Program-made: the position numbers and the translations under genes
Notes under the pieces: model-generated
Seen by the model: the letters and a program-made list of their open reading frames with translations, nothing else
Database searches by the model: none
Told to the model about the DNA's origin: nothing
Shown: piece after piece, positions 4,301-32,358 of the stretch
Layout: each line of letters begins with the position of its first letter
Position numbering within the stretch: position 1 is the first letter of the stretch
Source of the DNA: Kiritimatiellia bacterium
Lineage (GTDB): Bacteria; Verrucomicrobiota; Kiritimatiellia; RFP12; UBA1067
Direction of reading: 5' to 3'
DNA length: 46,174 nt
Assembly: GCA_024405255.1 (NCBI GenBank)
Contig: JAKSOY010000010.1
Location: forward strand, 1-46,174

Positions 4301-7273
4301 TCGAACGGCGGTGAAATCTACATCGCCCCCGAGGCGACGCTGGACATCAACGTGGCGCTGGCGGGCAACGAGACGTCGTTGCTCTACCAGGAGGTCACTC
4401 ATGGCAAGACGCTGTACGTGGCGGGTTCGCTTGTCAACGATCTGGCCAATGTGTCGTGGGGACCGGCTTTCAGCCATGTCAAACTCCTGAAGGATGTCGC
4501 GGTGGGCAGTGAAACGGTTTCGCGCATGGATTTGCGGGTCCTCTACGGCAGCGCCAATACGGACATTTTACTTGAAGGTCCTTTCACTTTGACCGCCCAG
4601 GGGCGTACCACCTTTGGACCCGTTGGTAATCGGTTCGAGTTGGCGCGCCTTGACAATCGTACGCACGACGAGGGTAAACTGCTGCTGGCCTTTTCCATGA
4701 GCGGCGCCATTACGAATGGCATCCACTGCTACAACGGATCCACGACTCATTTCTACGGTGTGCCGGCTACGGGCAATGCCCAGACCGATTACACGTTTGA
4801 GGAGGGAACAGCACGGATTGAGTGCGAGAACGCGTCGACGATTCTGGGCAATCTGCTGGTGCGAGACGGCGTGACGGTGACCGCGCCGCTGAAAACCGCT
4901 CTCACCTGGCGGGGCGGCGTGACGAACAACGGCGAGATCGCGACTTCGGGTGCGGTGGCGCCTCTCGTCCTCGCCGGGCGCCTGTGCGGATCGGGACGGA
5001 TCGCCGGACCGCAGGTGCACTTCGCCGGAGATGAGACGTGCTGGTGCCTGCGCGCGGACGAGACGGGCTTCACGGAGAAGGTGGACTTCGATGCGGTGAC
5101 GGACGCGCAGCTTTGGAACGGACTCAAACGCGTTGAGGTCGTCTACACGGGTCGCACCACGGAAAAGCGCTATCTCAAACTCGGACCGGTGTTGGGACTG
5201 TCGACGGTGGAGGGCATCACGCTGCAGGTGACGGATGGCGCGGGTGCCGACATCACGGCGGCCTGCCGCCTTGCGGTGAGCAACGGCGAGTTCCTCCTCT
5301 GCATCGGCGAAGACGTGGTCGTGGAGCGGGCGGTCTGGACGGGCAATGGACGCGCGAACGATCTTTCCGATCCGGCCAACTGGTCTTGCACGACGGGCGG
5401 CGCGACGGTTCCGGATGCGGTTCCGATGAGCCAGACCACGGTGGTACTGCCGGACGACAAGGTCTTCAACTGCACCGAAATGTCGCAGCTCGTCTGCAAG
5501 ACCGTCGTGTTCCCGTCGACGCTTTGTGCCGACTGCGATTGGCGTGGACTGCGCGTGCCGTTGTCGGGCGTGATCGATTTGCGGGGACATTCGCTCACGC
5601 TTTCGTCCCTGCTCGGCGAAGCGACAATCACGGACACTGTGGGCGGCGACTACGATCGGCTCCAGTTCATCGAATCTTCGGGCACGCAGTGGATCAACAC
5701 GGGGTATATGCATCGGTCCGATACGCGCATCGAGATGGATGTGTGGGTTAACAGCTATCAGCAGAATGGACAGAAGTACGCCTGCCTGTTCGGCGGCTCT
5801 TCGCTGCATGGGACGACCCGTGGTGGCTTCTACTTCCAGCCGGTTTGCGGAAACGTTTCCGTCGCGGCACCGTATTTCTATCTCTCGGGGAAGAATGCGC
5901 ATGCCCCGACATTCCCGTTCCGCGAACGGATTCTCCTGACGTGCGCCAACGGGTCGGTGACCTGGGGCGAGACGAAATTGACGCCGACCGGTCTGGACGG
6001 GACGCTCGGCGAGGGCGTGGGGCTCTTGACGCTCTTTGCCTACAACAATTCGGGCAATAGTACCGATGTGGCGATTTGCGGGAACACCTGTGCGACCATG
6101 CGGCTCTTCGCGACGCGCTTCTGGGAAGGGGGCACGCTCGTGCGCGACTATGTGCCGGCACGGCGCCGGAGCGACGGCGTGGTGGGGTTGCTCGATCAGG
6201 TCACGCAGACGTTCCTGACGAACGGTGGCACGGGGACGTTCGTGGCGGGGCCGATGCTGACGTTGCCGGGCGACGCGGGCGGCGAGCTGCATGTTGTGGT
6301 ACCGGAAGGCGCGGCGGAAATCAATTCCTCGGTTGCCTTGACGGGCCGGATGAAATTCATTAAGGAGGGCGCGGGCGCGTTGACGTTTGCCAAGGCGGGC
6401 GGAGACTACGCGGGCGGCACGATTGTTCGCGGAGGACGGTTGTCGGCGCGTCGTGACACGTATGCGGTTGTCGGTACGGTGCGGGTCGAGTCAGGCGCGG
6501 TGTTCGACATCAATGGCGCGGCGGGCCTGGATTGCGTGTCGTCGGAAGTGGTGTTCACCTTGGCGGGCGGTACCCTGGCGAACTACGGAAAAGATGCGTC
6601 GAGCGGCAACATGTGCGTGGGGCAGGTCGTGCTGGAGTCTGATTCGTTCTTCGATGTTTCGTTGAATTTCGGGATCATCTGCTATGGATACTGCCCAACC
6701 GCGATCGACCTCGGCGGGCATCGCCTCACCGTGAATGTGCCGCAGAGCAAGACGCTCTACCTCTACAACGCCGACATCACGGCGGGGCAGATCGTGCTCA
6801 CGGGTGGCGGGACCCTGGGGTTGGATAAAACGTCAGTACGTGCCGCCGCGACCGACTTCGACCTCGACTGCGCGCTCACGCAGGGCGTAACGATCGACGT
6901 TCACGATTGGGTCGTGCGGACCGACCCCGCGCGGGTCTCTTCGGGTGCGGGCTTGATTCGCGTCCACGGTGCCTACACGCCTGCGACGGATGCCGCCCGC
7001 AATGTCGTGCTGATGAACGGTTCGACATTGGACTTCTCGCTGCGTGCGCGTGGACAGGAACTCGATGGTGCCTCTCTCGCCTATGCGGAAGGTTCGACCC
7101 TCGTCAACGTGCGCGCGGGGGCGTTCGGAAAGGGCAATCCGTGCCGTCTCGTCCATTGGGATGCGCCGCCCGAAGGTGTCCAGTTCGTCAAGGCGCCCGG
7201 TAGCGACTTCATCGTCATCACGGCGCCGGATGGCCTTTACGCGCAACGGGGATTGATGCTCATCCTGCGCTGA
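1316..7273 (+). CDS. Giant secreted modular protein with four lectin-like modules
   Basis: This is a 1985-residue exported protein of unknown function. The start has AAGGA eight bases upstream and a signal peptide ending near CSA (about residue 26). Four lectin/LamG-like modules with the signature (Y)xxLxxIxSsGTQWIDTGY begin near residues 33, 233, 717 and 1447. Two copies of a second module, running from 'DPANW' to 'DCDWRGL' and 'GHxLTL', centre near residues 677 (variant DSDWSGL) and 1406. Autotransporter-associated beta-strand repeats (LVKEGAGTF, FIKEGAGALTF..YAGGTIV) occur near 955 and 1678. The last ~140 residues form a C-terminal module found in the other giant proteins, ending GLYAQRGLMLILR. 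The module order closely matches the protein at 28552-32358. No beta-barrel translocator, LPXTG or PEP-CTERM anchor is visible. A glycan-binding surface or matrix role is inferred from the lectin-like folds. Confidence 0.85.
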   Translation: MKMTMRRVIGCVLVVGGALAAGICSAVQPLPANYTALEWISSDGNQWIDTGYLPSAKTQRFELRFMPLTNNIGWGAFCGSFSSNSSAGWLLTYSGSTEDIRTWFYNGEGDWTTGLSWRGQVVDAVVEVGKCTFSSSEDSFERVLTPSSVGRYAGSVYLFTANRNGGLFQPQAMRCYSFKIYDREGDEDVLVRDFVPCRTDEEELGLWDRVSGTFYRNRGIGHFYQPGDDLAARVSYLQSSGTEYINTEYALNANTARLELDARPLARTGSWAALCGAFNGTGSKAGILLTYYEKTDDLRTWFFNTEGDWKTGMTWANQDLHVELEAGLMTYSSKQGQTFQKATTPSDVARYTGNFYLFAANQNGSLYQRQAMRLSSCRIFENNGAGGLVCVRDWYPERHADGAIVLTDHADHSEEPGYNPLTFGENYLPWGGIAYREEANSTLRIFEGTLEEGFMNSCDMIVKDGRYVLAAGEVTNYPRFSLEKGTFSLQDGTARAYDFTGIITLTGGAHLAIDLTSEGCDTLHTAYGVVFQNATAANPVYVDITKAADVTRIAEEMTLIATNVALPDGEVDYIVAKGFNPFRFKVVNGQLIMYSLVNLPLTATWVGDTRSPASFDLADPANWCCTNALGEAIAVETGVLPTDSCTVILPDGCTFKCPKGSTLAAKEVRFPATLGGDSDWSGLSIRPSGHIDLLGHKLTLADLDGTATIVDTQGETYQRLEFIESTTAREWIDTGYSFNNDTEIACDLFAFNSAQQTKWSCVFGSRPQAFQAGNTSLCFFFYFDAKYRPVFEYNVYSVAQQGAEGSFPMNTRTSLAFSNPAKTVSWSGGGVTGTMTSTNDFPVCQQTLAIFDGHTLAGAMGNPARMRLYNFRISERGTVMRDFVPARRTSDGAVGLIDLANGEMFYGNASTAGAFVAGPVVPTATRPRGEVHIVTPENAPAPLPGTDTLTFGGAVKLVKEGAGTFVAQDSAVAQVNAVDVLAGTLRLAHGKQTTMSNGGEIYIAPEATLDINVALAGNETSLLYQEVTHGKTLYVAGSLVNDLANVSWGPAFSHVKLLKDVAVGSETVSRMDLRVLYGSANTDILLEGPFTLTAQGRTTFGPVGNRFELARLDNRTHDEGKLLLAFSMSGAITNGIHCYNGSTTHFYGVPATGNAQTDYTFEEGTARIECENASTILGNLLVRDGVTVTAPLKTALTWRGGVTNNGEIATSGAVAPLVLAGRLCGSGRIAGPQVHFAGDETCWCLRADETGFTEKVDFDAVTDAQLWNGLKRVEVVYTGRTTEKRYLKLGPVLGLSTVEGITLQVTDGAGADITAACRLAVSNGEFLLCIGEDVVVERAVWTGNGRANDLSDPANWSCTTGGATVPDAVPMSQTTVVLPDDKVFNCTEMSQLVCKTVVFPSTLCADCDWRGLRVPLSGVIDLRGHSLTLSSLLGEATITDTVGGDYDRLQFIESSGTQWINTGYMHRSDTRIEMDVWVNSYQQNGQKYACLFGGSSLHGTTRGGFYFQPVCGNVSVAAPYFYLSGKNAHAPTFPFRERILLTCANGSVTWGETKLTPTGLDGTLGEGVGLLTLFAYNNSGNSTDVAICGNTCATMRLFATRFWEGGTLVRDYVPARRRSDGVVGLLDQVTQTFLTNGGTGTFVAGPMLTLPGDAGGELHVVVPEGAAEINSSVALTGRMKFIKEGAGALTFAKAGGDYAGGTIVRGGRLSARRDTYAVVGTVRVESGAVFDINGAAGLDCVSSEVVFTLAGGTLANYGKDASSGNMCVGQVVLESDSFFDVSLNFGIICYGYCPTAIDLGGHRLTVNVPQSKTLYLYNADITAGQIVLTGGGTLGLDKTSVRAAATDFDLDCALTQGVTIDVHDWVVRTDPARVSSGAGLIRVHGAYTPATDAARNVVLMNGSTLDFSLRARGQELDGASLAYAEGSTLVNVRAGAFGKGNPCRLVHWDAPPEGVQFVKAPGSDFIVITAPDGLYAQRGLMLILR

Positions 7274-7276
7274 GAA

Positions 7277-10162
7277 ATGCGAGGGATGCTGACAGCATTG
7301 GCCGCACTTGGGCTGGTTTGGGTCTCAGGTGCGGCTGAATTTACGGCTACCTTCGCCGACTACGATGTTGGCGAGGCCGTGAGTGAAAAGGGCACGGCGG
7401 GTGGACGCTGGGTACTCGCGCCCGGCAGTGCCGCGTCCGCCGTGGTGGTGGACGAGGTGCCGGCGTGCGAACTCGCTTCGGCGACGGACGAGCTGACGTT
7501 CGATCTCGCCGTGCGCGTAGCGGAAACGCCGACGCGCTGCGATGCGAAGATGCGGTTCGATTCGTCCGTGGTGGCGGCCGCTTCTTTGCCGGTTCCGACG
7601 GATGCCCGTGCGGCGCTCACGCTCGGGATGGGCTGTCGTGGCGGACTCGCCTTTCTCGGGCTTGCGCGCGGCCGGTGGCAGGAACTTTCGTCGTCGGCGG
7701 TCGTGGCGGAACTGGACCGCTGGTACGACGTGCGGGTGGAAACCTGCAGCTGGGATGGTGCCGCCTATGTGTCGTATGCCGTGAAAGTCGCGGACGGGTA
7801 TCAGCGCCTGGCGAACAGCCTGGGGGCGATGTGGTTTCGGCTGGACGGGACGACGGGCGATTTTACAGAAGTGGCGTATCAGGGGAATGGCGGACAGATC
7901 GCCGACCTCGCGGGCGGTGCGGGCGACGAGCCGGCGCAGTCGGTCGACTGGCGTTGGGTCGGAGGAACTGCAGGCGATTGGAACGATGTCGCGAATTGGG
8001 CGGAGGCGGCAACCGGCGCGCCGGCCGCGCGTTCGCCGTCGGTTGGCGAGACCGTACATCTCGCAGGGAATGTGGCGCTCACGCGCGGAAGCGAGGCCGC
8101 GACGGTGCACGATGCCGTCTTTCGCGTGGACGCGTCGGGTGGACTCGAACCGTTGGCGGGGGCGCTGGAGACGCATCTCACGCTCGACGTGTCGCGTCCA
8201 CGGGCGGGACGGGCCTTGACGGTGACATCCGCTCCTTTTGGTGGCATCGTGCCTTCGGTTGGCCGCTGCCAATGGACGCGGGGCGACATTTTCGGCGTGT
8301 TTGAAGACGAGCCAATCTCGCAACAGCCGACCTGGGTGCCGTCCGAAGCCGACTACGAACATTGGGTCCACGTTCAGGCGGCGACGACGGACGGACAGTG
8401 GCTCAGCGAGCGATTCTTCTTTTCCCGGCTGCCCGTGTGCTATCTCACGACCGACGACGGGAAGACGCCGAGCGCGTCGAAAGAGGAACATGCGGGTCGG
8501 GTGCGGATGCAGGGCAACGACGAGTGGAAGAGTCCGTACGACGGTCGGATGACCATCAACGTGCGTGGCAACTACAGCAAGGGGCGCCCGAAGAAACCGT
8601 GGAAGATCAAGCTTGACGAAAAGTCGAAGTTGTTCGGCATGCCGTCCTCGAAGCATTGGGTGCTGCTCGCGAACTATCCAGATGCAACGGGCATGCGCAA
8701 CAAGCTCGTGTTCGATTTCGCCAATCGCATCGGTTCGCTCGGGATGAGGTCCACGTGGGTGGACTGCGTACTCAACGGCGAATGGCAGGGACTCTACCTG
8801 TTGTGCGAGCACATCCGCGTGGGAAAGAACCGCATCGACGTCTTCGACTGGGAAGAGGCGGGTGAAGATGCGGCGAAGGCGATTGTGAAGGGATCGCCCG
8901 CACTGACGGCGGCGGACCAGGATGCGCTTGAGAAGTCGCTGAAGGAAAATCTGGGATGGGTGAGCACGGGCACGGTTGCGTACAAGGGCACGACGTATGC
9001 GCTGGGAGATTTCGTGTCGGATTTCGCGTCCATCACGAACGATATCACGGGCGGGTGTCTGTATGAATTCGACACGTATTACGACGAGAAGTCGAAGTTC
9101 TCGCACACCTCGGGCAGCTTGACCCTGCAGACGATGGTGAACCGTCCGGAATACCTCTACACGAATGCGCGGATGTTCGACTTCAATCAGACGTTCATCG
9201 GGAATTACGTGAAGGCGATCACCTCCGTGGACGGATACAGCGCAGAAGGGCGGCATTATTCGGACTATGCCGATGTCGAGTCGATGGTGGCCTATTTCCT
9301 TGTGGCCGAAATGTGCGGCAACTGGGATGCGGCGTACCGGAGCCGTTACGGGTACAAAGAGCGGAGCGGATTGCTGAAGTTCGGTCCGCTGTGGGACTAT
9401 GACGCGGATGTCGGCGGCGATTTCCGTCCGGCGGGCGATCGCGATCCGGAAACGTGGACGGCGAATTTCGGGCCGTATTCGTTCTTGCGCGAATGGGCGG
9501 ACGACCCGTGGTTCTGCACGCTCCTCTGGACGCGCTATCCGGCGGCGCGGGCCGAGTTCTCGGCACTCATCGAGGGCGGCACCGAGGGCGATGGCCTCAT
9601 CGGCGAGGCGTATCGCCTGCTGCGCGAGGCGGGACTGGCCAACGACCGCAAGTGGTCCACGCAGAGCGATCGGGTGGGCAAGGAAACGTTCGAGCCGGCA
9701 GTACAGACGCTTCGGCGTTACTTGAAGCGGCGGCGCACCTGGCTTGATCGGCAGTTCCAGAATGTGCCGGGTTTGATGACATCGCTGCGGCAGGGCACGC
9801 GCGGCACGCCGTCGTCCGCACCCTACGAAAAGGCGACGTATGCGCTTGCGATGACGTTCGTCAATGCGCCTGAGAACCGGTTGTGGAAGGGACGGGCGCT
9901 GGCGCTTGAGGTCCAGGCGTATGCGGCCGCGACGGTGGCGGTACGTGTGTTTGTCAATGGACGCGAGCTGGGTGCATCATGGCCGGTCGCACGCGGCCGG
10001 GCGGTGGGCGAAGTGCCGCCCGAGGCATTGACGGCGAATCTCGGCGAACCGAACTGCATTTCGCTCATTTCAACCGACGCGGCCGGCAAGGTGCTCGCGC
10101 GCAACTACGCGCTCGTCTGGTGCCAAAAAAACGAGAAAGCCAGCGTCATCCTCCTGCGCTGA
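7277..10162 (+). CDS. Secreted CotH-family protein kinase with extra N-terminal modules
   Basis: This 961-residue protein has a signal peptide (MRGMLTALAALGLVWVSGAA). Residues ~220-300 contain a diverged 'WVGG..DWNDVANW' module like that in the neighbouring giant proteins. Residues ~389-830 match the CotH family: NVRGNYSKGRPKKPWKIKLD, then LFGMPSSKHWVLLANY, MRNKLVFDFA, NGEWQGLYLLCEHI and VGKNRIDVFDW. FGPLWDYDADVGG follows, whose acidic residues D707, D709 and D711 are the likely metal-binding site. Known CotH proteins are atypical kinases that phosphorylate secreted or spore-coat proteins. The ATG lies 3 bases after the upstream stop with no good ribosome-binding site, so translational coupling is likely. 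The C-terminus, ASVILLR, resembles the tails of the giant proteins although the preceding domain differs. Phosphorylation of the co-encoded giant protein is a hypothesis. Confidence 0.88.
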   Translation: MRGMLTALAALGLVWVSGAAEFTATFADYDVGEAVSEKGTAGGRWVLAPGSAASAVVVDEVPACELASATDELTFDLAVRVAETPTRCDAKMRFDSSVVAAASLPVPTDARAALTLGMGCRGGLAFLGLARGRWQELSSSAVVAELDRWYDVRVETCSWDGAAYVSYAVKVADGYQRLANSLGAMWFRLDGTTGDFTEVAYQGNGGQIADLAGGAGDEPAQSVDWRWVGGTAGDWNDVANWAEAATGAPAARSPSVGETVHLAGNVALTRGSEAATVHDAVFRVDASGGLEPLAGALETHLTLDVSRPRAGRALTVTSAPFGGIVPSVGRCQWTRGDIFGVFEDEPISQQPTWVPSEADYEHWVHVQAATTDGQWLSERFFFSRLPVCYLTTDDGKTPSASKEEHAGRVRMQGNDEWKSPYDGRMTINVRGNYSKGRPKKPWKIKLDEKSKLFGMPSSKHWVLLANYPDATGMRNKLVFDFANRIGSLGMRSTWVDCVLNGEWQGLYLLCEHIRVGKNRIDVFDWEEAGEDAAKAIVKGSPALTAADQDALEKSLKENLGWVSTGTVAYKGTTYALGDFVSDFASITNDITGGCLYEFDTYYDEKSKFSHTSGSLTLQTMVNRPEYLYTNARMFDFNQTFIGNYVKAITSVDGYSAEGRHYSDYADVESMVAYFLVAEMCGNWDAAYRSRYGYKERSGLLKFGPLWDYDADVGGDFRPAGDRDPETWTANFGPYSFLREWADDPWFCTLLWTRYPAARAEFSALIEGGTEGDGLIGEAYRLLREAGLANDRKWSTQSDRVGKETFEPAVQTLRRYLKRRRTWLDRQFQNVPGLMTSLRQGTRGTPSSAPYEKATYALAMTFVNAPENRLWKGRALALEVQAYAAATVAVRVFVNGRELGASWPVARGRAVGEVPPEALTANLGEPNCISLISTDAAGKVLARNYALVWCQKNEKASVILLR

Positions 10163-10257: not shown

Positions 10258-10273
10258 GCCAGAATTGGAATCC

Positions 10274-10524: not shown

Positions 10525-13500
10525 ATGAAAAAGAAGAACTGGTTGATTTTCGCAGGGTGTTTTCTTGCGTGTGCGGCGAGGATGGTTCTTGCGGGGCCGA
10601 ATCTGCTCGTAAACGGGGATTTCGAATCGGAGGCGTTCAGCGGTACGGACACATTCGCATATCGCGTACCGGCGGGATGGACGGCGGGCGGCGTGCCCGT
10701 CCAGGTGGGCAGCAGCGGCGCGAACAATATCTTTCTCTCCAAAACCAGTTTGGGGTATGGTACGCGCGGGTGCTTCATGCAGTCGTACAAATCGTCGGCG
10801 CAGAGTCTTCGCCAGACGTTTACGGTGCCGCAGACGGGCCTCTATCGCGTTTCCTTCGACTATGCAGCGCGCTATGGAACGAACCAAACCGGCGTGCCGG
10901 CGCGTTTCTGGATTACGAAGGACGATGAAACGGTGGTGGAGCGGGCGTTCAAGCCGAATGCCCACTTGCCGATTCGCTCCATTATGACGAATGTCGTGCT
11001 GACAGCCGGCGTCCATACATTCAACCTTGAACAGGAGGAGATGGAGACCGACCAGTCGAATGTCTACGACAACTTCGTCGTTGTGGCGGTAGACGAGAAC
11101 CTGCTCGTGAACGGGGATTTCGAGCTGAGTCCGTGCGAGGACGCGAATGGCCAGTATACCTATGGTGCGTCCGGTCCGGGTTGGAATTATTCGGGAGCCG
11201 TCGTCGTGGGCCGTCCCACAGGCCAGTGGGGGTATAACGGCCTTGCGGGCGCGGGGACGAAAATCGGGGGGCTTCAAACGACGCCGACGCTCAGCGATGC
11301 GATCCTTTTCCAGACGTTCACCGTGGCGACGGCCGGTGTCTATCGACTCTCCTTCGATTATGCCAGCCGTTTGGCGAAGTTTACCGGTGGGTCGTTCCAA
11401 GTTCAAATCCAGACGGACAACGTGGTGCGTCCGCTTGCCGAATTCAAGCCGGTGGCGGAGGCGCCGTTGCAGCACTATGTGAAAGACGTCTACCTCGCCG
11501 CCGGCGAGCAGACGCTTCGGTTCTGGATGCCGCCCGCGACGGCCGATTACGGTAACATCGTGGACAATGCCAGGATCATCCCCGTGGGCGGGGCGACATG
11601 CTATTGGACGGGCGCTGTTGACGGCGATGTGACGAAGCCCGCCAACTGGACGACGATTACTGCGGCCGGCGAGACGGTTGCTGCGGTGCCGGATGCGACG
11701 GCGAGCGTGGTCGTGCGTGGAAGCGACGTCAATTTGCAGATTCCCCCAGGGACGGCGTTCACCTGTGCGCGATTCCTCGTGGAAGATGCGACGCTGGGGG
11801 CGGATTGCGATTGGCGCGGCCTTGGCGTGGTGCCGGAACTGGACGGAACGACGCTGGATTTAGCGGGACATGCGCTCACGCTCACGGGCCTCTCGGGGAA
11901 GGGTACGGTGCGCGACAGCTTCGGCGGCGAGACGATGGGCGAGCTGCAGTTCGATGTTGCCGCCAATGCCTTCTGCAAGGTCGATGCCATCAATCTTTCC
12001 GGCTTCCTTCGTCTGGTCAAGCGCGGGGGCGGTATGCTGACGTTTACCGGTGAACAGAACCAGACGGGCGGGACGGTGCTCGAGGCGGGTTCCTTGAACG
12101 ACACGCTCGCCAGCGATTTCGCTTGGAGCGGACTTCTCGCCCATCGATGGAGCTTTACGAACGGGGCGCTCGTGGACGCGGTGGACGGTAGGACGGCAAC
12201 GGTGAATGGCACCATCTCCCACACGGTGGATGAAGTCGTTCTCCCGGGCGGCGAAAAGAATTCGGGCTCGCTCAACCTTGGCGCCAATATGTTGCCGCCT
12301 GAAAGCGCGGGTGTGACGATCGAGATCTGGGGACGTCTGCTCGCGTTCCAGCCGTGGGCACGAATCTTTGAAGTCTGCGGAGGAACGGACGATGAATTTC
12401 TGATGATGTCCTGGGCCGAGACGACCTTCCCCTCGGAGCGTATCCACATGAAGAAAGACGGAATCTCGATTTGGTGGAGCAATACGCTTCGTCCCTTCGA
12501 AATCGGGGAACGGTATTATGTTTCTCTTTCGTTGACCCCGAACGACCAAGGACTCGGCGGATGCCATCTGGTGTGGTCGAAGCGAAGCGCCGCGACGGGA
12601 GTCTGCCTCGCGCGTGGTTCGGGAAACTTCCCGCTGCGGAGCATCCAGGAGCTTTCGCAGGAGATATTCGCTTTGGGATGGTCGAGCGGGAGCGACGGGG
12701 ATGCGCCGGCGGCCTACGACGAAGTGCGTGTGTGGCGGACGGTTCTGAGCGAGGACCAGCTGGCGGCGGATGCCGTACATGGCCCGAATGAAAACACCTT
12801 TGCCATGCGTGCCATGATCGGCGAGCGAGCCTTCGCTTCGCTTGAGGCGGCGATGGAGGTGTCCGAAGCGTATGACGTGGTGACGCTGCGTGCGCATGAC
12901 GATGTGGATCCGCTCCCCTTTGGATCCCAGACGATGGCGCGATTGTCCCTGCCGGCCGGTTCACGCCTCTTCTTCGATCTTTCGGCGGCGACGTCGGATG
13001 TCGCCTTTACCGCCGCAGGGGGAATCACCCTGCCGGAAGGCGCGGACATCAATGACATGGTCGTCTTTTCCGAACCTTCGTTCACGGCGCAGCTCGTCAA
13101 CAACGGAAAGAGCATTATCGCCGTCAATGCCGACATGCCGATTACTGCTGAATGGGTGGGGGCGGGCGATCGTGCGAATTTCCGCGATCCCGCGAATTGG
13201 GTGTGCCGCAACCTCGCGGGGGGCGTCATTGCGGACGCCATTCCCACGAACAGCCTGACGAAGGTGACATTGCGCGGGAACGTGAATTTCTCCTTCCCGG
13301 CGCAGGCGGAGGAACTGTGGCAGACGCTCACGATCACGAATGTCCAGCTGACGACCGACTGCGACTGGCGCGGACTTCCCGCAAAGGCCTTTGCCGCAGG
13401 GGCGACGATCGACGTGCAGAATCATCGTCTGGAGCTGACGGGCGAACAGTATGCGGCCGCGAATGTCACGTTCACGGATACGGCGAATTGGCCGGCGTTT

Positions 13501-25602: not shown

Positions 25603-25708
25603 GGTGACGTTCGTGAAAATCGGTGAGTGAATTTGGCGATGTGTTCGGTTGAAATGATGAAAGAGAAATTAAAGAACAAGGTCGAGGTGGATAGGATTCC
25701 GTTTACGG

Positions 25709-26094
25709 AGGCGGAGGTGGATGCGAAGGAGTGTTTTGCGTCGCATTTCATGAGCGACTTCCTCGCGGGGAAGGGCGGCGGTTTCTGCGAAAACGTGCTG
25801 CCGGGGCTTGAGGGGGAAATATCTCACGCAGAGGACGCAGAGAGCGCAGAGGGAGAAGATGGAGGTTGTGCGAACGCTCTGCGTTCTCCGCGAGCTCCGC
25901 GTGAGATTCAACTCTCCCCGGCGGCTCGTGCCGTTCTTGACGTGGGGCGCGAGTTGTGGCGCTACTACCATGCGCAGCCCGGCGCGAATCCGAACGCCTC
26001 GTACTATGACATCCGCAGACATTTCCAGGGGATGAAAAAGACGGCTTCGGGCAAGGAGCAGATGAACGCGACGAGCGACGATGTGAAGTATAAT
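25709..26094. repeat. 386-bp direct repeat, copy B
   Basis: Near-identical partner of 21306-21691. The downstream boundary abuts, within two bases, the open reading frame of a protease remnant. This indicates that the repeat was pasted into, or recombined with, a second protease gene. Confidence 0.93.
25822..25906. repeat. 85-bp inverted-repeat element, copy B
   Basis: Identical to 21419-21503 and carried inside repeat copy B. Terminal arms are TCTCACGC and GCGTGAGA. Confidence 0.85.
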
Positions 26095-26096
26095 AA

Positions 26097-26327
26097 CGGG
26101 ATTGGGGTAATGAGACAGGGAGAGGATTCTATGGGGAAGACGATTCGCACGGGACGGTCTATAGGAATTATCTGATGTGCGGATATGGGTATCCTTCAAC
26201 GCGGGATATTCCTGATGGTCAAGTTTTCAGCCTAAAAGAAATGGCAATCTCAACAAACGATGTCTCGTATGTTGAGATCGGTGCGGAAGGAATCAAAACA
26301 AACAATGTGGAGGTTTTTACAAGATGA
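26097..26327 (+). pseudogene. C-terminal remnant of a second metzincin-like protease
   Basis: After the TAA at 26094-26096 this frame is open for 76 codons with no early start codon. It encodes RDWGNETGRGFYGEDD, then HGTVYRNYLMCGYGYPSTRD, IPDGQVFSLKEMAIS and so on to VEVFTR. It aligns with the C-terminal part of the protease at 24880: DDWGWYPP with RDWGNETG, RLLMYGVFSTNKVDLSYGDV with NYLMCGYGYPSTRDIPDGQV. The Met-turn methionine is kept but the HExxH half is missing, replaced by repeat copy B. Its TGA overlaps the ATG of the next gene (ATGA at 26324-26327), the same coupled layout as at 24880. The remnant shows that protease genes in this island were duplicated and then broken by the repeat. 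Confidence 0.7.
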
Positions 26328-27175
26328 AGCGGTTCTGCTGGTTAGTGTCATTTGCGGTTTGTCTGGCGGTGGGCGGTCTTTGTGCCTATACGCCGGCAGA
26401 AACAAACGATGTCGTCAAAGGTATGCTATTTTATGTCGTTCAGTTAGGCAGTTATGATAATTTCACCGATGACAGGGGGATTGTGATTAAGGGACCCAAT
26501 CCCGATACCTGGGAAGGTTTTCTGGGGGGAGGGCGAGATGGCTCTTGGACAACGGCGGAAAGAAAAGCTGCCTTCGACTGGTATCTTTCAACACTTGGCA
26601 CGACCGACTTCACTTCGTCCTGTGATATGGATAAAAAGCTGGTTCATGCCGCGCTCACTCGTTGCGAGGTGTTCAACTATTCGAATTCTGTCCCTTCATT
26701 GCGGGCATTGGCTTTAAATCCAAAAGGCGTTTGGAGACATAAAGCAATCAAATTGGCTTTGGGGCTGTCAACAATCGATGCCTCAACTACGGCATTTGTT
26801 GAAATGTTGGTTACAAATGTGGTCAGCTTCAGTTCTGTTGAGAGGGGAATTGCATGCGGCGTCTATGCGGAGGACGTATTGTTGCTTTCGCGGCAGGAGA
26901 AATTTAGATCGCAGGTTGAGGATGCGGTGAGAATGTTCTACCGAAATCGATCTGTGGATGTCATTGGAACAGAGGTTGTGGACGATTTGTTTGTCCAGAC
27001 GATCAGCGGATATCGCGAAAGTTCTAATCGACTTGAATTTGCGACACAGGCTTTGTCACAGACAGATTGTCCAGAAGAGGATCAGAGGTACTTCGCTGGG
27101 GTGACAAATGATTTGATCTCCCTGTGTCACCCCCTGACGAATCTGACGTCGGTTGTGTTTGCTCAGGGGAATTGA
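26324..27175 (+). CDS. Secreted protein of the 'YTPAETN' paralogue family, copy 1
   Basis: This 283-residue protein is of unknown function. GGAGG lies ten bases upstream. The signal peptide (MKRFCWLVSFAVCLAVGGLCA) is followed at once by YTPAETNDVV, shared with the proteins at 27339 and 28157. Further family landmarks are AAFDWYLSTLGT, MFYRNRS and ESSNRLEFATQAL. The sequence looks helical, with regularly spaced Leu/Ala. No enzyme motif is visible. It belongs to an AT-rich cluster of tandem paralogues. Its start overlaps the stop of a protease remnant, so it was probably once translated together with a protease, as the unrelated 239-residue protein still is. Confidence 0.7.
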   Translation: MKRFCWLVSFAVCLAVGGLCAYTPAETNDVVKGMLFYVVQLGSYDNFTDDRGIVIKGPNPDTWEGFLGGGRDGSWTTAERKAAFDWYLSTLGTTDFTSSCDMDKKLVHAALTRCEVFNYSNSVPSLRALALNPKGVWRHKAIKLALGLSTIDASTTAFVEMLVTNVVSFSSVERGIACGVYAEDVLLLSRQEKFRSQVEDAVRMFYRNRSVDVIGTEVVDDLFVQTISGYRESSNRLEFATQALSQTDCPEEDQRYFAGVTNDLISLCHPLTNLTSVVFAQGN

Positions 27176-27338
27176 AATGAATGAGTCGGTTTTACGTAGA
27201 GAGGATTACTTAGAATTAAAGATGCTCAGCGATTTCGGGATTATATCAAAATCAAACGACGCATGCTCCTCTTGGCGCACGAACTGTGGAGTCTAAAACT
27301 GACGCAGAGATTTATTCATGGTGAGAAGGAGTTTGACA

Positions 27339-28154
27339 ATGAGGTTGTGTTTTTTCCTGATGCTGTTTTCCATGCCAGTTTGGGCGTTTACGCCGACAGA
27401 GACGAATCAAGTTGTTCGGTCACTGTTGAATCGAATCATGGCGGATGCGTATGATGATAATTTGACATTGGAGGGACGGGTTCTTCTCCCTGAGGAATGC
27501 ATTGACACGTGGGAGACTTTCATCGGGGGAACGCATGCGCCAGGTTGGTCCTTTGAAGACAAAAAGGGCGCATTCGATTGGTATCTGTCAACACTAGGGA
27601 CAAAGGATTGCCGTGCGCTCCCGCAAGGGCAGAAGGACTATGTTCTCGGTGCGATTTCACAATGCCACGAACTTCACTATACGAATGCCGTACCCTATCT
27701 CCAGGCACTTGCATTCAACACAAATGGCGTACATCGAGACTCGGCTTTCAGGAATGCGATCCAACTCGGACAGGTCGACGAGGAGATGACCTCTTTCGTT
27801 CAATCAATCGTAACAAATTCTGCAATTTTCTCGGAGGTCGAAAGAGAAGCTGTTTTTGCCGAATATTCAGATAAGTTGGTCGCCATGTCCAATGATTGTT
27901 CTCTGGCGCGTTTGAATGCGGGGCGGATGTTCTATCGTAATCGCTTCATTGGTCCCGTGGGGGAAATCAGCGTCGATGACGCCGTCAAGGCGTGTTTTCC
28001 TCTCTATGAAAGCAGTTCCAATCGTCTTCAGACGGCTATTGCGACCCTTGCGCGGTCAGATTGTGAACCCCATGTAAGAAGATATTTTACCACTGTCACC
28101 AACCAGCTGCTGTCCTCGGGGCGGCCGCTCGTGCAGCTGACGATCGGGGAGTAG
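27339..28154 (+). CDS. Secreted protein of the 'YTPAETN' paralogue family, copy 2
   Basis: The protein has 271 residues. The ATG at 27339 is preferred over one at 27318 because AAGGAG lies seven bases before it and the signal peptide (MRLCFFLMLFSMPVWA) then starts correctly. Mature sequence FTPTETNQVVRSLLNR, KGAFDWYLSTLGTKD, NAVPYLQALAFNTNGVHR, MFYRNRF and YESSSNRLQTAIATLA align with copy 1 at 26324 through the whole length. Function is unknown. The gap before it (27176-27338) contains only a 39-codon frame at 27177-27296 that I do not consider a gene. The stop is followed 2 bases later by the truncated third copy. Confidence 0.7.
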   Translation: MRLCFFLMLFSMPVWAFTPTETNQVVRSLLNRIMADAYDDNLTLEGRVLLPEECIDTWETFIGGTHAPGWSFEDKKGAFDWYLSTLGTKDCRALPQGQKDYVLGAISQCHELHYTNAVPYLQALAFNTNGVHRDSAFRNAIQLGQVDEEMTSFVQSIVTNSAIFSEVEREAVFAEYSDKLVAMSNDCSLARLNAGRMFYRNRFIGPVGEISVDDAVKACFPLYESSSNRLQTAIATLARSDCEPHVRRYFTTVTNQLLSSGRPLVQLTIGE

Positions 28155-28156
28155 AA

Positions 28157-28453
28157 ATGAAGACGATTGTATGGACGCTGGCTTTTGTGGTTTGTCTGGC
28201 GGCGGGCGATCTTCGTGCCTATACGCCCGCTGAAACGAATGATGTTGTAAGGACAGAACTCCAGAGATTGTTGGAAGTTTCGCTTGACCGTGGAGCTGAA
28301 GTACCTGAAGTCGGAGGCGAAGTCCGAGTCCCAGGCGGAAGTGCTGGACTGACATCTCCGCGCGAACGGAGACGCATGGTTGTTTTGTCCTCGGTTTCCA
28401 AGTTTATTGCGATTATAATTATGAAAAATGGGGGGGGGGCTGTTCAATTGTGA
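28157..28453 (+). pseudogene. Truncated third 'YTPAETN' paralogue
   Basis: The signal peptide and first mature residues (MKTIVWTLAFVVCLAAGDLR, AYTPAETNDVV) clearly match the two preceding genes, and GGGGAG provides a ribosome-binding site. Similarity is lost around 28260. The frame then runs through unrelated sequence to 28453, crossing a run of ten G. In the +2 frame bases ~28280-28353 read FRLTVELKYLKSEAKSESQ and stop at TGA, which could be the tail of another gene. The 97 codons after the break lack FDWYLSTLGT and MFYRNR, so this is a remnant. A short exported peptide could still be made. Confidence 0.65.
28430..28439. repeat. Run of ten G (possible slippage tract)
   Basis: A G10 homopolymer, preceded by AAAAAT, lies 25 bases upstream of the predicted -35 box of the giant-protein gene at 28552. 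It also lies inside the frame of the truncated paralogue. Such tracts change length by slipped-strand mispairing. It could also be an assembly artefact, so the exact length is uncertain. Confidence 0.75.
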
Positions 28454-28464
28454 AAGATTTGCTC

Positions 28465-28494
28465 TAGACATCTCCCGTGCGGATTTGCTATACT
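28465..28494 (+). promoter_or_regulatory. Predicted promoter of the 1268-residue giant protein
   Basis: TAGACA at 28465-28470 and TATACT at 28489-28494 have an 18-bp spacer. The transcript would start near 28501 and carry AGGAGG at 28543-28548 just before the ATG cluster at 28552/28555/28558. Confidence 0.6.
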
Positions 28495-28551
28495 GATCAG
28501 TAGGTGGCCCATAGTATAAATGGGGTAGATCCAAAATCTAAGAGGAGGAAC

Positions 28552-31500
28552 ATGATGATGAAATGTGGCGGGATGAAGAAGTGGTTGGTGGTGGGGTTTT
28601 CCGTTTTGAGCGGTTTGGTCGCTTGGGCGGAGGCATTGTTGCCGGTCGGATATACGCAGCTTGACTGGATTCAGTCCTCAGGCACGCAGTGGATCAATAC
28701 CGGCTACTCGCCGAATGCGAACACGAAGATCGAGGCGTCGTTCAACACGTGCACGCGGCGTACCTGGGGCGTCTACTTCGGCTGTTCGACGGCAGATGAG
28801 CCGCGTGATGGCGTCCAGGTGCGGTGGTATGGCGGAAACGACCGACTGAACGGTTGGTTCGGTAATCCTAACTTCCAGACGGAGGGCGTGATCAACATGA
28901 CGCAGAATCAGGACGTGACGGTGACGTTGGAACGAGGGAGTTTCTCGCTCAACGGTACGACGTCGACGTTGACCTCGCAGAACGTCCCTGATGCGAACCC
29001 TCTCTATCTGTTTGCGGGCTATTGCCTGCATCCACAGGGGAGCGCGGCGGAAACCTTCGATGCCGCGAATCATGTCTACCGTCCGCAGACGATGCGCCTC
29101 TATTCCTTCAAGGTGAGCGAAGAGGGCGTGATGAAACGCGACTTCGTACCATGCTGCAGTGCGACGGGAGAGGTGGGCCTTTGGGATCGTGTGGAAGGGC
29201 GTTTCTACGGTAACCAGGGAACGGGAACCTTCAATGCCTCCTATGGCGTTGCGTCGCGCCTCAGCTGGATTCGCTCGTCGGGTACGCAGTGGATCGATAC
29301 GGGCTACAAGCCGAACATGTCAACGAAAATCGATGCCGCGTTTAATACCTGTACGCCGACAACGAGTTGGGGCACGTTCTTCGGATGCACGAGTGCCGAC
29401 GTGCCGAATGACGGTGTTCTTGCGCGTTTCGATAATCGAGCAGCCAGATTGAACGGATGGTTTGGAAACTCCAACTGGCAGGCGGAAGGAAACTTCAACA
29501 TCGCATTTGACACCGATGTCGCGATCACGTTGCAGCAGGGAAGTTTTACGGTCAATGGCGATACGATGACGTTCGCGACGGTCCAGGAACCCGATCCGAA
29601 TCCGTTCTATCTGTTTGCGGCCTACAACAAAAAGACTTCGAACCATGTCTATCGTCCGCAGGCGATGAAACTCTACTCGTTCAGGATCAGCGAGACGAAC
29701 GTGGTGATGCGCGATTTCGTGCCGTATCGCACGGTCGATGGCACGTTGGGACTGTGGGATGACGTGGAAGGAAAGTTCTATCCGAATCAAGGTACCGGCG
29801 TTTTCACCTGGGGCGGCCTTGCCTATGATCGGCAGGGAACGACGCTCTTTGTGCATGAAGGTACGTTGACGGCGGATGACCTGACGGGTTCGACGGAGGT
29901 GCGGAAAATAAGTTCGAACAAACTTCAGGCGGCGGGCGTGCGAACCTATCCGGGCTCGCTGACGCTGGAGAAGGGCTGGTTCTTGCTGCAGGACGACGAG
30001 CCGACTGCCTCTACCGTGAACGGTACGTTGACGTTGAAGGGCGGGGCCTTTATTTCAATCGACTTGACCTCGGCCGGTTGCGATATGTTCAATGCAACGG
30101 CGGTCGCGTTTGAGAACGCCTCGGCCGAAAATCCGATCGGGGTGAGGATCAATTACGTCGACAGCCAGCTTGCGGCATCCAATACGTTTATCGCCTCGGG
30201 CGTACCTGGCGAAAACGGCGAGGTGGACTTCATTCGGGTTCTCGACGATGCGCCTTTCAAGTTCGTCATTCAGGATGGTGCGCTTCTCCTCTGTGCGGAC
30301 GAGACGGTGCCGACGCACGCGGTTTGGGCGGGGACGGCGACCTCTGCGCTTGATGATCCCGCATCTTGGACGCACCAGAACATCATCGGGGGACCGGTGG
30401 CGACGAACACCGTGCCGCTCGCCACGGAAACGATCGTGCTGCCGAATGCCTGTACTTTCAACTGCCCGGCCGGTCAGACGATTGCCGGCACGAAGGTGGC
30501 ACTGCCGGCGACGCTCGGAGCCGATTGCGACTGGAGCGGACTCGATTTGCCGCTCTCCGGCAAGGTCGACTTGAAGGGGCATACGCTCACGCTCGCGCGG
30601 TTCAACGGCACCTATGAGATTACCGACTCCACGGGACTCGACTACCAGGTTCTCGCGTCGATCCAGTCCTCGGGCACGCAGTGGATCGACACGGGCTATC
30701 TGGTGAACGCCGGAACGAAGATCGAGGCGTCGTTCAACACCTGCTCGCGTACGACGGGTTGGGGCATCTTCTTCGGCTGTTCGTCGACGGATGATGCGAT
30801 CAACGGCGTGCAGGTGCGGTGGTATGGGACGAATAACAAGTTGAACAGCTGGTTTGGAAGCGGCGACTATACGAAGGAAGGTTCGATCGACGTTAACCAG
30901 AATACGGATGTGACGGTGACATTGGAACGGGGACTGTTTACGCTCAATGAAAAGTCGGCCACGCTCTCCAACCAGGCGACACCGTCGGCCAATCCGCTTT
31001 ACCTGTTTGCCGGATACTGCACGACGCCCTACGGCGGCGTGAAAAATCTCTACGATCAGGCGAACCACGTGTATCGTCCGCAGGCGATGCGTCTCTACTC
31101 CTTCAAGATCAGCGAAGGCGGCGTGGTGAAACGCGACTTCCTGCCGGTGAGACGGTTGAGTGACGGCGAACTTGGCCTTTTGGACGTGGCCGAGGGCCGT
31201 GTTGAATTCTATCCGAACCACGGGACTGGTTCGTTCACGGCGGGCAATCCCACAGGACGCATCGTGAATTCCGGAACGCAGTATGGTACTCTGCGGCTCG
31301 TGGCGGCCAACGACATCGAGAATGCGACCGTGGCGCTCACCGGCTCGCTGAAGCTTGTGAAAGAAGGCAAGGGTGCGTTCACCGCCAAGAAAACGGACCA
31401 GACCTATTCGTGCGGCACGGTGGTCGACGGCGGCGTGATCCATCTCTACAACGACAATACGCGCTACACGACGAGCAAGTGCCTTCTGGGGGCACTGGGC

Positions 31501-32358
31501 TCCACGATCACGCTCAATGCGGCCGGCAAGTTGAACGTGTCGGGCACTTACGGGCTTGGAGCCTACGCGTATGTGCTCAACGGCGGAACGCTTGCAAACG
31601 AGAGTTTCAACGGTGTCGCGTACATGATCAATGAAACGGACGCCGCCGCATTCGACCGCGTGACGCTCACGGCCGACTCGACGCTCTGGCCGCTGCGGCA
31701 GTTCATCTTCGACAAGGGTACGCTTGATCTGGGCGGGAAAACGCTGACGGTCGATTTCAGGTCCTTTGGATCCAAGAACCTTTTCCTAAAGGGCGGCACG
31801 CAGCAGATCGTGAACGGCACGATCCGCGTGCAAGGCGGCCTGGCGGGCGAGTATGATCGCGTGCGTGTGAGCAACGAGGCCGTGGATGCGCGTACCGTCA
31901 CCTTCGAGATCGTCCAGGCCGAATTCGACCTGCAGAAGGACTTGAACGTGAGTAATTACATCGCCCGCGCCTCGCTCGGTACGGGAACGGCGGACAATAC
32001 GGGAACGGCGGCTCTGAACGTTTGGGGCATGTTCCAGCCTTGGACAGATTTCTTCTACGGTTGCACCTTGCAAGATGGCGCCACGCTTGACCTTTCCGAA
32101 CAGGCCGGCACGTGGAGCGTGACGAGCGTCGGTGCGTGCGAACAGAAGACGGTGCAGTTTGCGACGAATGCGACGATCACGGTCTCCTTTGGCGCTCGTC
32201 CGATCAAAGGAGGAGATTGTGTGATCGCCTGGACGGAAGAGACCTGTCCGCCCGGCGACGTGATCTTCAAGTCGGCGACTCCGAATCCCGACTATCGCCT
32301 TCGCCGCGAGGCACTTGGTCTTTACATCGAGCGCGGCCTCGTGATTTTTGTGAGGTAG
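28552..32358 (+). CDS. Giant secreted modular protein with three lectin-like modules
   Basis: This 1268-residue protein starts at the ATG cluster right after GAGGAGG; 28555 or 28558 would give better spacing. The signal peptide is basic and hydrophobic (MKKWLVVGFSVLSGLVAWA). Lectin-like modules with SSGTQWINTGY or SSGTQWIDTGY begin near residues 32, 237 and 699. A linking beta domain (WGGLAYDRQGTTLFVHEGTL..LEKGWFLLQDDEP) and a module ending DCDWSGL (near 658) come between the second and third. Autotransporter-associated repeats (LKLVKEGKGAFTAKKTDQTY) start near 933. The shared C-terminal module (YGCTLQDGATLDLS) ends GLYIERGLVIFVR. The order is the same as in the protein at 1316-7273, apart from one lectin/DCDWRGL block less. 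It is predicted to be surface-exposed and glycan-binding. Export beyond the Sec step is unexplained. Confidence 0.85.
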   Translation: MMMKCGGMKKWLVVGFSVLSGLVAWAEALLPVGYTQLDWIQSSGTQWINTGYSPNANTKIEASFNTCTRRTWGVYFGCSTADEPRDGVQVRWYGGNDRLNGWFGNPNFQTEGVINMTQNQDVTVTLERGSFSLNGTTSTLTSQNVPDANPLYLFAGYCLHPQGSAAETFDAANHVYRPQTMRLYSFKVSEEGVMKRDFVPCCSATGEVGLWDRVEGRFYGNQGTGTFNASYGVASRLSWIRSSGTQWIDTGYKPNMSTKIDAAFNTCTPTTSWGTFFGCTSADVPNDGVLARFDNRAARLNGWFGNSNWQAEGNFNIAFDTDVAITLQQGSFTVNGDTMTFATVQEPDPNPFYLFAAYNKKTSNHVYRPQAMKLYSFRISETNVVMRDFVPYRTVDGTLGLWDDVEGKFYPNQGTGVFTWGGLAYDRQGTTLFVHEGTLTADDLTGSTEVRKISSNKLQAAGVRTYPGSLTLEKGWFLLQDDEPTASTVNGTLTLKGGAFISIDLTSAGCDMFNATAVAFENASAENPIGVRINYVDSQLAASNTFIASGVPGENGEVDFIRVLDDAPFKFVIQDGALLLCADETVPTHAVWAGTATSALDDPASWTHQNIIGGPVATNTVPLATETIVLPNACTFNCPAGQTIAGTKVALPATLGADCDWSGLDLPLSGKVDLKGHTLTLARFNGTYEITDSTGLDYQVLASIQSSGTQWIDTGYLVNAGTKIEASFNTCSRTTGWGIFFGCSSTDDAINGVQVRWYGTNNKLNSWFGSGDYTKEGSIDVNQNTDVTVTLERGLFTLNEKSATLSNQATPSANPLYLFAGYCTTPYGGVKNLYDQANHVYRPQAMRLYSFKISEGGVVKRDFLPVRRLSDGELGLLDVAEGRVEFYPNHGTGSFTAGNPTGRIVNSGTQYGTLRLVAANDIENATVALTGSLKLVKEGKGAFTAKKTDQTYSCGTVVDGGVIHLYNDNTRYTTSKCLLGALGSTITLNAAGKLNVSGTYGLGAYAYVLNGGTLANESFNGVAYMINETDAAAFDRVTLTADSTLWPLRQFIFDKGTLDLGGKTLTVDFRSFGSKNLFLKGGTQQIVNGTIRVQGGLAGEYDRVRVSNEAVDARTVTFEIVQAEFDLQKDLNVSNYIARASLGTGTADNTGTAALNVWGMFQPWTDFFYGCTLQDGATLDLSEQAGTWSVTSVGACEQKTVQFATNATITVSFGARPIKGGDCVIAWTEETCPPGDVIFKSATPNPDYRLRREALGLYIERGLVIFVR

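Follow-up and report, generated by a model that had tools for sequence, protein, structure and literature searches.

Many unrelated, mostly signal-peptide-bearing proteins of Kiritimatiellia-type bacteria end in a short tail that is likely to be a C-terminal sorting signal. The tail has seven residues with the consensus G(-7)-[T/L/F]-x-Phi(-4)-x-Phi(-2)-[R/K]-COOH, which would place it among the shortest C-terminal sorting signals. It appears to be a hitherto undescribed label that addresses proteins for export to the cell surface or for attachment there. Searches of open-licence papers for the tail or its hosts listed no description of it.

Five tailed proteins in the window

The window, the whole 46,174-nucleotide stretch of Kiritimatiellia DNA that was analysed, encodes five large proteins on the forward strand that carry the tail directly before the stop codon, and by a crude rule each of them has a signal peptide. 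The first (1316-7273; 1985 residues) has a weak PATR-like repeat and a C-terminal beta-helix module and ends in GLMLILR (7250-7270). The second (7277-10162; 961 residues) belongs to the CotH-kinase family; its last domain is by our reading an Ig-like beta-sandwich, and it ends in ASVILLR (10139-10159) without a beta-helix module. An F5/8 type C domain, a weak choice-of-anchor C match (30 bits against a cut-off of 120), a weak PATR-like repeat, the module and the tail GLTLFVR (14938-14958) make up the third (10525-14961; 1478 residues). The beta-strand-rich fourth protein (15020-17605; 861 residues) and the fifth (28552-32358; 1268 residues), to which P0001 is a 98% relative, both have the module and end in TFVVLLR (17582-17602) and GLVIFVR (32335-32355), respectively. 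The four modules, placed by alignment, directly precede the tails at 6674-7249, 14362-14937, 17006-17581 and 31759-32334. The sequence-only reading had described the five secreted proteins and their hydrophobic tails with a final Arg correctly, but its span of 7216-32358 leaves most of the first gene outside. In line with its further statement that no known C-terminal sorting signal is present, Pfam and NCBIfam scans of the five proteins show none.

The 23 overlap-filtered window ORFs of 120 aa or more contain Phi-Phi-Phi-[R/K] at 22 of their 12854 internal positions, so that 0.04 C-terminal matches are expected against the five observed (Poisson 8e-10). Gly stands at -7 in three of the five tails. 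In gene order the final Arg is encoded by CGC, CGC, CGC, CGT and AGG and followed by TGA, TGA, TAG, TAA and TAG, as had been noted before. CotH orthologues use CGC, CGT, CGG, CGA, AGA or AGG and all three stops, and Lys replaces Arg in 16 of 107 distinct tailed ORFs. These varying codons and stops and the Lys-for-Arg swaps rule out recent DNA duplication, as already argued from the window alone, and likewise a constraint at the DNA level; on this sequence evidence the tail is shown to be conserved as protein rather than as DNA. The last residue is sometimes non-basic, with Q, H, E, M, L, Y, W and A found in a set of 1482 C-termini and Q, F and others among choice-of-anchor Q homologues.

Link to the C-terminus, to export and to unrelated hosts

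The C-terminal module is common to the four large proteins other than CotH, with 25-31% identity to that of the first. The description of such a module as a domain of some 100-120 residues holds for its existence and not for its size, which is nearer 200 residues. A module profile from which the tail was removed matches nothing in the CotH protein, which, as claimed earlier, has the tail without the module. In relatives the module is also found internally, and there it lacks the tail: the pattern lies within 25 residues of one of 22 internal copies, while 30 of 43 terminal copies end in strict Phi3-[R/K], as do 36 of 41 module relatives. Since tail and module are separable, in CotH, choice-of-anchor Q and other proteins and in the internal modules, the idea of a new secretion, anchoring or assembly signal fits the tail and not the module.

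The alternative, offered in the sequence-only reading as the last strand of a beta-helix, is that the tail forms such a strand or a cap and plays no part in sorting. In module proteins the end does resemble one more rung, G-[LI]-Y-x-x-x-G-L. However, the tail is also present on CotH, DUF4886, metallophosphatase and LamG proteins, which have no beta-helix, internal copies of the module finish without it, and both AlphaFold2 models that we consulted close the fold ahead of it. For the CotH protein, ASVILLR is modelled without secondary structure behind a last strand at residues 939-950; for the protein at 15020-17605, TFVVLLR lies beyond the last strand (residues 848-853). The tail is thus a low-confidence, strandless end to well-predicted domains in two unrelated window proteins and is predicted to lie outside the fold, although low AlphaFold2 confidence is no proof of exposure. 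We reject the beta-helix explanation as extremely improbable.

Hosts of the tail are unrelated and include proteins with the beta-helix module, CotH, choice-of-anchor Q, LamG/DUF2341, DUF4886, metallophosphatase and other domains. To enter the set of distinct tailed ORFs, an ORF had to have Phi at positions -4 and -2 together with a small residue at -7; the resulting 107 make up 26 context clusters, and 71 of them have a signal peptide. These loose rules admit a few chance matches, for example L165, L176 and L181, and where related genomes contributed near-identical copies, these were dropped only if the last 200 (or 60) residues were identical. Among 120 listed CotH relatives, 71 have the tail by the strict and 92 by a looser rule, 21 carry another terminal domain (FF[R/K]V) and seven have neither. 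In three short CotH proteins (P0142, P0146, P0160) the last domain is absent and the tail is kept. The sequences thus show that the tail goes with the terminus, whatever domain comes before it.

Among the 120 homologues listed for one choice-of-anchor Q protein, 82 have this domain (NF041518, which the L211 and L215 proteins match above its cut-off) ending no more than 40 residues from the C-terminus. Phi (or Ala, Tyr, Trp) occupies -4 and -2 in 79 of these 82 and Gly occupies -7 in 72; 80 stop 11-14 residues past the domain, and in the remaining two (P0209, P0275) PEP-CTERM follows it directly. The domain thus lies upstream of differing C-terminal anchors, as a choice-of-anchor domain does, with the tail in about 80 and PEP-CTERM in two of the 82, and these homologues show the two to be exchangeable on this one domain as far as sequence can tell. 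This exchange with a known anchor bears on another explanation, in which the tail serves protein stability or quality control, for example by shielding the C-terminus from a PDZ-type or tail-specific protease or by presenting it to one. Proteases of this kind typically bind C-termini that are short, exposed and hydrophobic, and the tail is short, hydrophobic and, by prediction, exposed; yet its last residue is nearly constantly basic, which is unusual in these ligands. Together with the swap for PEP-CTERM, this makes such an element very unlikely.

The restriction of the tail to the extreme C-terminus was borne out in the pooled set, where 80 of 1482 C-termini score at least 8 against 0.28 expected from internal windows (training set included). 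By offset from the C-terminus, matches peak at 0 in genomes G004, G006 and G002. G003 differs, with as many matches at offset 1 as at offset 0 (4 and 4). Enrichment among exported proteins, as predicted, is found in G004 (9 of 64 with and 0 of 162 without a signal peptide, p 8e-6) and G006 (7/190 vs 1/274, p 0.009) and falls short in G003 (3/77 vs 1/178, p 0.08). A matrix built from 69 CotH tails and applied at threshold 8 to ORFs without CotH matched 14 of 464 in G006 (0.14 expected; 13 with a signal peptide), and 6 of 226 in G004 (0.07 expected; all 6 with a signal peptide), but a single ORF each in G003 (of 255) and G005 (of 217), so tail density differs widely from genome to genome. G003 has four strict matches in 255 ORFs, one of them convincing by eye. 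In these samples ORFs were the longest non-overlapping frames from a simple picker, not a real gene caller, and signal peptides were assigned by a crude rule. G003, G004 and G005 were sampled as the first 20 kb of contigs 1-20, and the G002 contigs and G028/G154 stretches were selected for holding modules or tails. For G006 we took contigs 1-10 by number; contig 26, extensions of 1, 2, 5 and 7 and the start of 76 were picked after module matches had been seen, which raises the tail density for contigs 1, 2, 6, 26 and perhaps 76.

Across 193 genomes of the class, a DNA pattern for the tail gave 447 matches compared with 152 for the reversed pattern, a rough null. Twelve genomes have at least seven matches, against none for the reversed pattern, and the module is unmatched in nine of these twelve (module counts cover at most 16 scored candidates). 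By the same pattern 172 of the 193 genomes are near background, with 176 matches and 126 in the reversed control. No non-tail gene is clearly conserved beside tail genes; eight families have three or more members near them, the two largest being CotH and the module proteins. Co-occurrence with one export or processing gene, which the sequence-only reading had proposed to check, was not seen among the few candidate families searched, and these yielded no receptor or processing gene for the tail.

Comparison with known secretion and anchoring systems

One close parallel is the type IX CTD of Bacteroidota, as in RgpB of Porphyromonas, where a Sec signal peptide is likewise combined with a C-terminal beta-strand signal on unrelated cargo. 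Gingipains are reported to build up in the periplasm when the last few residues of the CTD are removed, and the last 22 residues of one CTD to export GFP (PMC4804311). In contrast to type IX cargo, no signal domain of about 80 residues with a beta-sandwich fold was recognised on the tailed proteins. The Por secretion CTD/T9SS model matched none of the five window and ten G028/G154 proteins at NCBIfam E values up to 0.1. SprA was found in none of the seven genomes first searched and none of the 193 of the class, while the positive control, the Bacteroidales genome L049, scored 2636 bits; we rejected type IX secretion on this result.

Like an LPXTG sortase signal, the tail closes a hydrophobic C-terminal stretch with a basic residue; unlike it, the tail has no LPXTG and is far too short. 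Sortase is rare, occurring in 5 of 193 genomes and in one (G142) of the 21 tail-rich genomes, those with at least five tail matches, and we rejected this route. The type Va autotransporter barrel is absent from the five window proteins by Pfam, with weak PATR repeats in three. A TpsB-type transporter (POTRA_2) was matched in 39 of 193 genomes and three of the 21 tail-rich ones (G035, G142, G185), with no association seen; many of these matches lie in frames that also match Omp85. The tail further resembles the type I signals of metalloproteases and lipases, which have hydrophobic residues at the extreme C-terminus. Type I cargo of this kind is not known to have a Sec signal peptide or a terminal Arg, whereas the tailed proteins mostly have a signal peptide and end in Arg or Lys.

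A putative envelope receptor

As a sorting signal, the tail is probably read as a beta-strand by a putative envelope receptor. Tailed proteins would use Sec to pass the inner membrane. Once in the periplasm, the tail would be exposed as a short beta-strand, hydrophobic at -4 and -2 and basic at its last residue, and would dock by strand addition on the receptor, which may then pass the protein across the outer membrane or fix it there. We put forward more tentatively, as somewhat less probable than its opposite, that Kiritimatiellia and near relatives have a new outer-membrane sorting system, marked by the tail, which replaces PEP-CTERM in some lineages. In it the seven-residue strand tag would dock on BAM or another receptor, and tens of giant non-barrel proteins in each genome would reach the cell surface in this way. 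If the tail is indeed a sorting signal, sequence alone would reveal some of the surface proteins of a poorly cultured bacterial group, with every tagged protein predicted to use one export route; the receptor would be either a novel machine for export or anchoring or else an unexpected role of BAM or exosortase; and how giant barrel-less autotransporter-like proteins exit the cell would become a directly testable question.

Within the sorting-signal reading, the tail could be a shortened outer-membrane beta-signal read by BAM, at the lateral gate of BamA or by BamD, so that barrel-less proteins are handled at the outer membrane. The published beta-signal is zeta-x-G-x-x-[aromatic/Phi]-x-[aromatic/Phi] (PMC10945584). 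G-x-x-Phi-x-Phi with the same spacing, plus one last residue, is found in 86 of the 107 tailed ORFs, an agreement weaker than it looks because the set had been selected for hydrophobic residues at both positions (-4 and -2) and for a small one at -7; Omp85 is found in 189 of 193 class genomes. Unlike a beta-signal, however, the tail has an extra basic last residue in place of an aromatic end, and the polar residue two before Gly is present in just 38 of 107 ORFs. Moreover, Pfam found no barrel domain in the five window proteins, the tail forms no strand in the two AlphaFold2 models, and Omp85 copies are not raised, at one or two in each of the 12 genomes with at least seven tail matches. We regard a role of BAM as possible but rather doubtful. 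Extra Omp85 copies as a mark of tail-rich genomes are not a rule: among the 21 genomes with at least five matches G134 has four and G182 three as exceptions, and tail-poor genomes reach seven.

The tail could instead be the substrate signal of an exosortase variant, in place of PEP-CTERM. Both are C-terminal signals on exported proteins of the same class and alternate on choice-of-anchor Q, and exosortase is found in 178 of 193 genomes. PEP-CTERM matches are fewer in the 21 genomes with at least five tail matches than in the 148 with at most two (median 2 vs 9, Mann-Whitney 4e-5, kinship ignored; a count of 41 means at least 41), and eight or fewer occur in 20 of the 21 as against 89 of the 172 others (Fisher 9e-5, again ignoring kinship). 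The deficit weakens at stricter cuts, with a median of 3 for 12 genomes (p 0.01) and of 3.5 for 10 genomes (p 0.03), and the tail-rich G002 has 16 PEP-CTERM matches. Known exosortase substrates have a transmembrane helix, for which the five to six hydrophobic residues of the tail do not suffice; the tail also lacks the PEP motif and the Arg cluster, and TIGR02595 (PEP-CTERM) matched none of the 15 window and G028/G154 proteins. We therefore judge an exosortase substrate signal unlikely. In seven tail-rich genomes (G001, G002, G006, G028, G071, G105, G160) the exosortase copies that were read are fused to an EpsI-like domain, a tally that leaves out G156, G154 and G137 (L238, L239, L241), where the exosortase frame is missing from the ORF picks. 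Against such a link, exosortase and the EpsI-like protein are adjoining genes in the tail-poor G046 and the tail-rich G139, and long exosortase frames, judged by length alone and not read, also occur in tail-poor genomes. The long exosortase that had seemed a marker of tail-rich genomes is this exosortase-EpsI fusion, and it fails to separate the two groups.

The tail in the window and on related proteins

Five proteins of the window (ORFs 1316-7273, 7277-10162, 10525-14961, 15020-17605 and 28552-32358) end exactly as the sequence-only reading had claimed, in a seven-residue tail of the form G-[T/L/F]-x-Φ-x-Φ-[R/K], where Φ is hydrophobic. Glycine occupies position -7 in three of the five, with alanine in CotH (7277-10162) and threonine in the protein at 15020. 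From the rate of the strict pattern Φ-Φ-Φ-[R/K] inside the window ORFs (22 of 12,854 internal positions, 23 ORFs kept), 0.04 C-terminal occurrences would be expected, against five observed. The window starts at the end of SecY, and the nearest relatives of its proteins share 98-99% identity across the parts searched; the few named relatives among the matches listed are from Kiritimatiellae MAGs (P0004, P0051, P0052, P0120).

Using residues 380-961 of the window CotH as query, we examined the best 120 of 271 matches. Of these relatives 71 have the strict ending (92 by a looser rule), 21 carry a DRFFKVxVxLP-type terminal domain in the tail's stead and seven fit neither rule, two of them being tail-like by eye (GTTIKLR, GTRLYFR). 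Among 61 distinct ends preselected by the looser rule, which fixes R/K at -1 (R in 56, K in 5), positions -4 and -2 are hydrophobic throughout, Arg or Lys is tolerated at -3 in nine and positions -12 to -8 are not conserved. The FFKV ending either follows the final β-sandwich domain (P0044, P0046) or replaces that domain (P0136); this ending and the tail thus look like alternatives. The G...R tail was not seen by eye on CotH relatives from Clostridia and one Bacteroidales, where the nearest ends are such as KTIKVTVK (L065). The second C-terminal domain, ending in DRFFKVxVxLP or FYRVxV (P0044-P0049, L012-L017 and others), occupies the tail's place on β-helix homologues as well as CotH relatives and may be another sorting domain.

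The best 120 of 736 homologues of a choice-of-anchor Q protein (L215, genome G028) were also taken. In 82 of them the domain end G[AC][YFH][EQ] lies within 40 residues of the C-terminus; 80 of these stop 11-14 residues past the domain, and the other two have PEP-CTERM at that place (P0209, P0275). Within the 82, positions -4 and -2 are hydrophobic in 79, Gly stands at -7 in 72 and the C-terminal residue is R (63), Q (6), K (4), F (4) or, once each, H, S, D, L and Y. The other 38 listed homologues, lacking a near-terminal domain end, comprise 22 with an FYRV-type terminal domain, two more with a PEP motif and 14 unassigned ones. The NCBIfam name "choice-of-anchor" fits a role of the tail as one of this domain's anchors. 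One subgroup (P0228, P0231, P0239, P0255, P0259) ends in MI[K/R]FF or MIRIL without a basic last residue; its FF ends are nearer to an OMP-like aromatic end.

Separation of tail and module

Four of the window tails follow a β-helix module, and 36 of 41 module relatives (query: last 179 residues of the protein at 28552) end in Φ3-[R/K]. When a module profile built without the tail was applied to 1482 distinct ORFs, 65 matches extended to the profile end. Terminal copies, at most 30 residues from the C-terminus, number 43, of which 30 end in Φ3-[R/K]; among the other 13, six end in R/K after a less hydrophobic stretch (e.g., GMVISIR, GFTIYLR), five have a different last residue (Q, H, L, W, L) and two gave matches that overran the ORF end. 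The tail pattern lies within 25 residues of only one of the 22 internal copies. The module thus occurs with or without the tail depending on its position within the protein.

C-terminal enrichment and spread through the class

Genome-scale tests were run on genomes related to that of the window. In G003, G004 and G005 the contig number decided what was sampled; in G006 part of the choice was made with knowledge of its module matches, and G002 contigs were picked. The strict pattern ends 9 of 226 ORFs in G004 (0.4 expected; 9/64 with and 0/162 without a signal peptide by a crude rule), 8 of 464 in the partly module-guided G006 sample (0.7 expected; 7/190 and 1/274), 4 of 255 in G003 (0.4 expected, one of the four being convincing by eye; 3/77 and 1/178), 1 of 217 in G005 (0.4 expected) and 19 of 185 on the picked G002 contigs (0.3 expected). 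Other CotH-bearing bacteria (43 loci) gave 3 of 433 against 0.8. By offset from the C-terminus, counts peak at 0 in G004, G006 and G002; in G003 offset 0 does not exceed offset 1 (four each), and the other CotH-bearing bacteria show no spike at 0 (three, with four at offset 4).

A matrix from 68 tails scored at least 8 on 80 of 1482 C-termini, training set included, against 0.28 expected from internal windows. As a cleaner test, a matrix from 69 CotH tails was scored on ORFs of four genomes without CotH relatives. At threshold 8 it found 14/464 in G006 (0.14 expected; 13 with signal peptide), 6/226 in G004 (0.07 expected; all six with signal peptide, one, LSLTVFRVR, doubtful), 1/255 in G003 and 1/217 in G005 (0.06 expected in each). 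At threshold 6, G005 gave 5/217 against 0.19, including GTRISLR, GSVLAFR, GMQVTIR and GFGISFR, which points to G-x-x-Φ-x-Φ-R as the putative core. Among 88 C-termini picked by their first six positions, 13 end in a residue other than R/K (Q, Y, M, L, W, A, E, H). The tail is a real C-terminal element. G005 (L203, L210), without the module, has a more strictly alternating variant (GTRISLR, GMQVTIR, GFGISFR), which would escape the DNA pattern used for the class and phylum counts.

That degenerate pattern (Arg plus TAA/TGA only) matched 447 times in 193 class genomes, against 152 for the reversed pattern as control. At least seven matches occur in 12 genomes (control 0) and at least five in 21 (control 1); the remaining 172 are close to background (176 against 126). 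The module profile matches five of the 193 (G001, G002, G006, G156, G188), and G156 and G188 have only two tail matches each. Nine of the 12 richest genomes have no module match: G028 (30 tail/0 control), G139 (29/0), G192 (45/5), G137 (16/0), G154 (12/0), G071 (9/0), G160 (9/1), G105 (7/0) and G163 (7/0). A phylum-wide set of 337 genomes, overlapping with the class set, has 13 that reach at least seven (control 2; read by eye). Twenty stretches picked around matches in G028 and G154 contain 26 ORFs fitting the tail rule, 24 convincing by eye. Ten of these tailed ORFs were scanned against Pfam and NCBIfam, giving choice-of-anchor Q (two), chlamydial PMP repeats, PATR or TIGR02601 repeats (two), LamG with weak DUF2341, F5/8 type C and a weak purple-acid-phosphatase N-domain; two had no match. 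Tailed proteins elsewhere include LamG/DUF2341, DUF4886, metallophosphatase, DUF642 and Cthe_2159.

Structure models, candidate machinery and function

AlphaFold2 modeled CotH from 57 sequences at mean pLDDT 90, with the last strand at 939-950; residues 951-960 (mean 59) and 961 (46) have no secondary structure. The protein at 15020 (26 sequences) reached a mean of 64, lowered by a poorly predicted N-terminal region; across its last 160 residues most blocks lie at 86-97. Its last strand is at 848-853, with a mean of 71 for residues 851-860 and 48 for 861. In both models the tail is predicted to lie outside the fold.

The search for machinery covered SprA, sortase, POTRA_2, Omp85, exosortase, PEP-CTERM and gene neighborhoods. 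SprA was found in none of the 193 class genomes (the positive control matched in a Bacteroidales genome), sortase in five and POTRA_2 in 39, 3 of the 21 tail-rich genomes (at least five tail matches) among them, with many of the POTRA_2 matches in BamA-type frames. Omp85 occurs in 189, with one or two copies in the 12 richest and four (G134) and three (G182) among the tail-rich, and exosortase in 178. Kinship ignored, PEP-CTERM matches are rarer in tail-rich genomes (median 2, n=21, against 9, n=148; p 4e-5), a deficit that weakens under stricter tail cuts (p 0.01, 0.03; Spearman over all 193, -0.18) and to which G002, with 16 matches, is an exception. Genes neighboring tail genes gave no lead to machinery. 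In L231-L237 (G002, G028, G006, G001, G160, G071, G105) an exosortase is fused to what we read as an EpsI-like domain, with a Cys-rich CPxC stretch; in L240 and L242 the two are neighboring genes.

The tail has the features of a sorting signal and probably is one, its function and machine being what we infer. It would dock as a β-strand, as suggested by its alternating pattern, its G-x-x-Φ-x-Φ spacing, which the OMP β-signal also has, and the precedent of the type IX signal's last strand. No description of the tail was found in the libraries and literature searched.

Elsewhere in the window, a 300-nt direct repeat (21306-21605 and 25709-26008; 99% identity, copies 4.4 kb apart) gives an identical 128-residue block to ORFs 21140-21781 and 25627-26175, which are otherwise unlike. 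Adjoining small secreted proteins at 26324-27175 and 27318-28154 appear by eye to be paralogues, and upstream of them ORF 24880-25602 carries a HEIGH metalloprotease motif. The 1391-aa protein at 32414-36589 combines a hydrazine-synthase-alpha middle domain with a C-terminal formylglycine-generating-enzyme-like domain.
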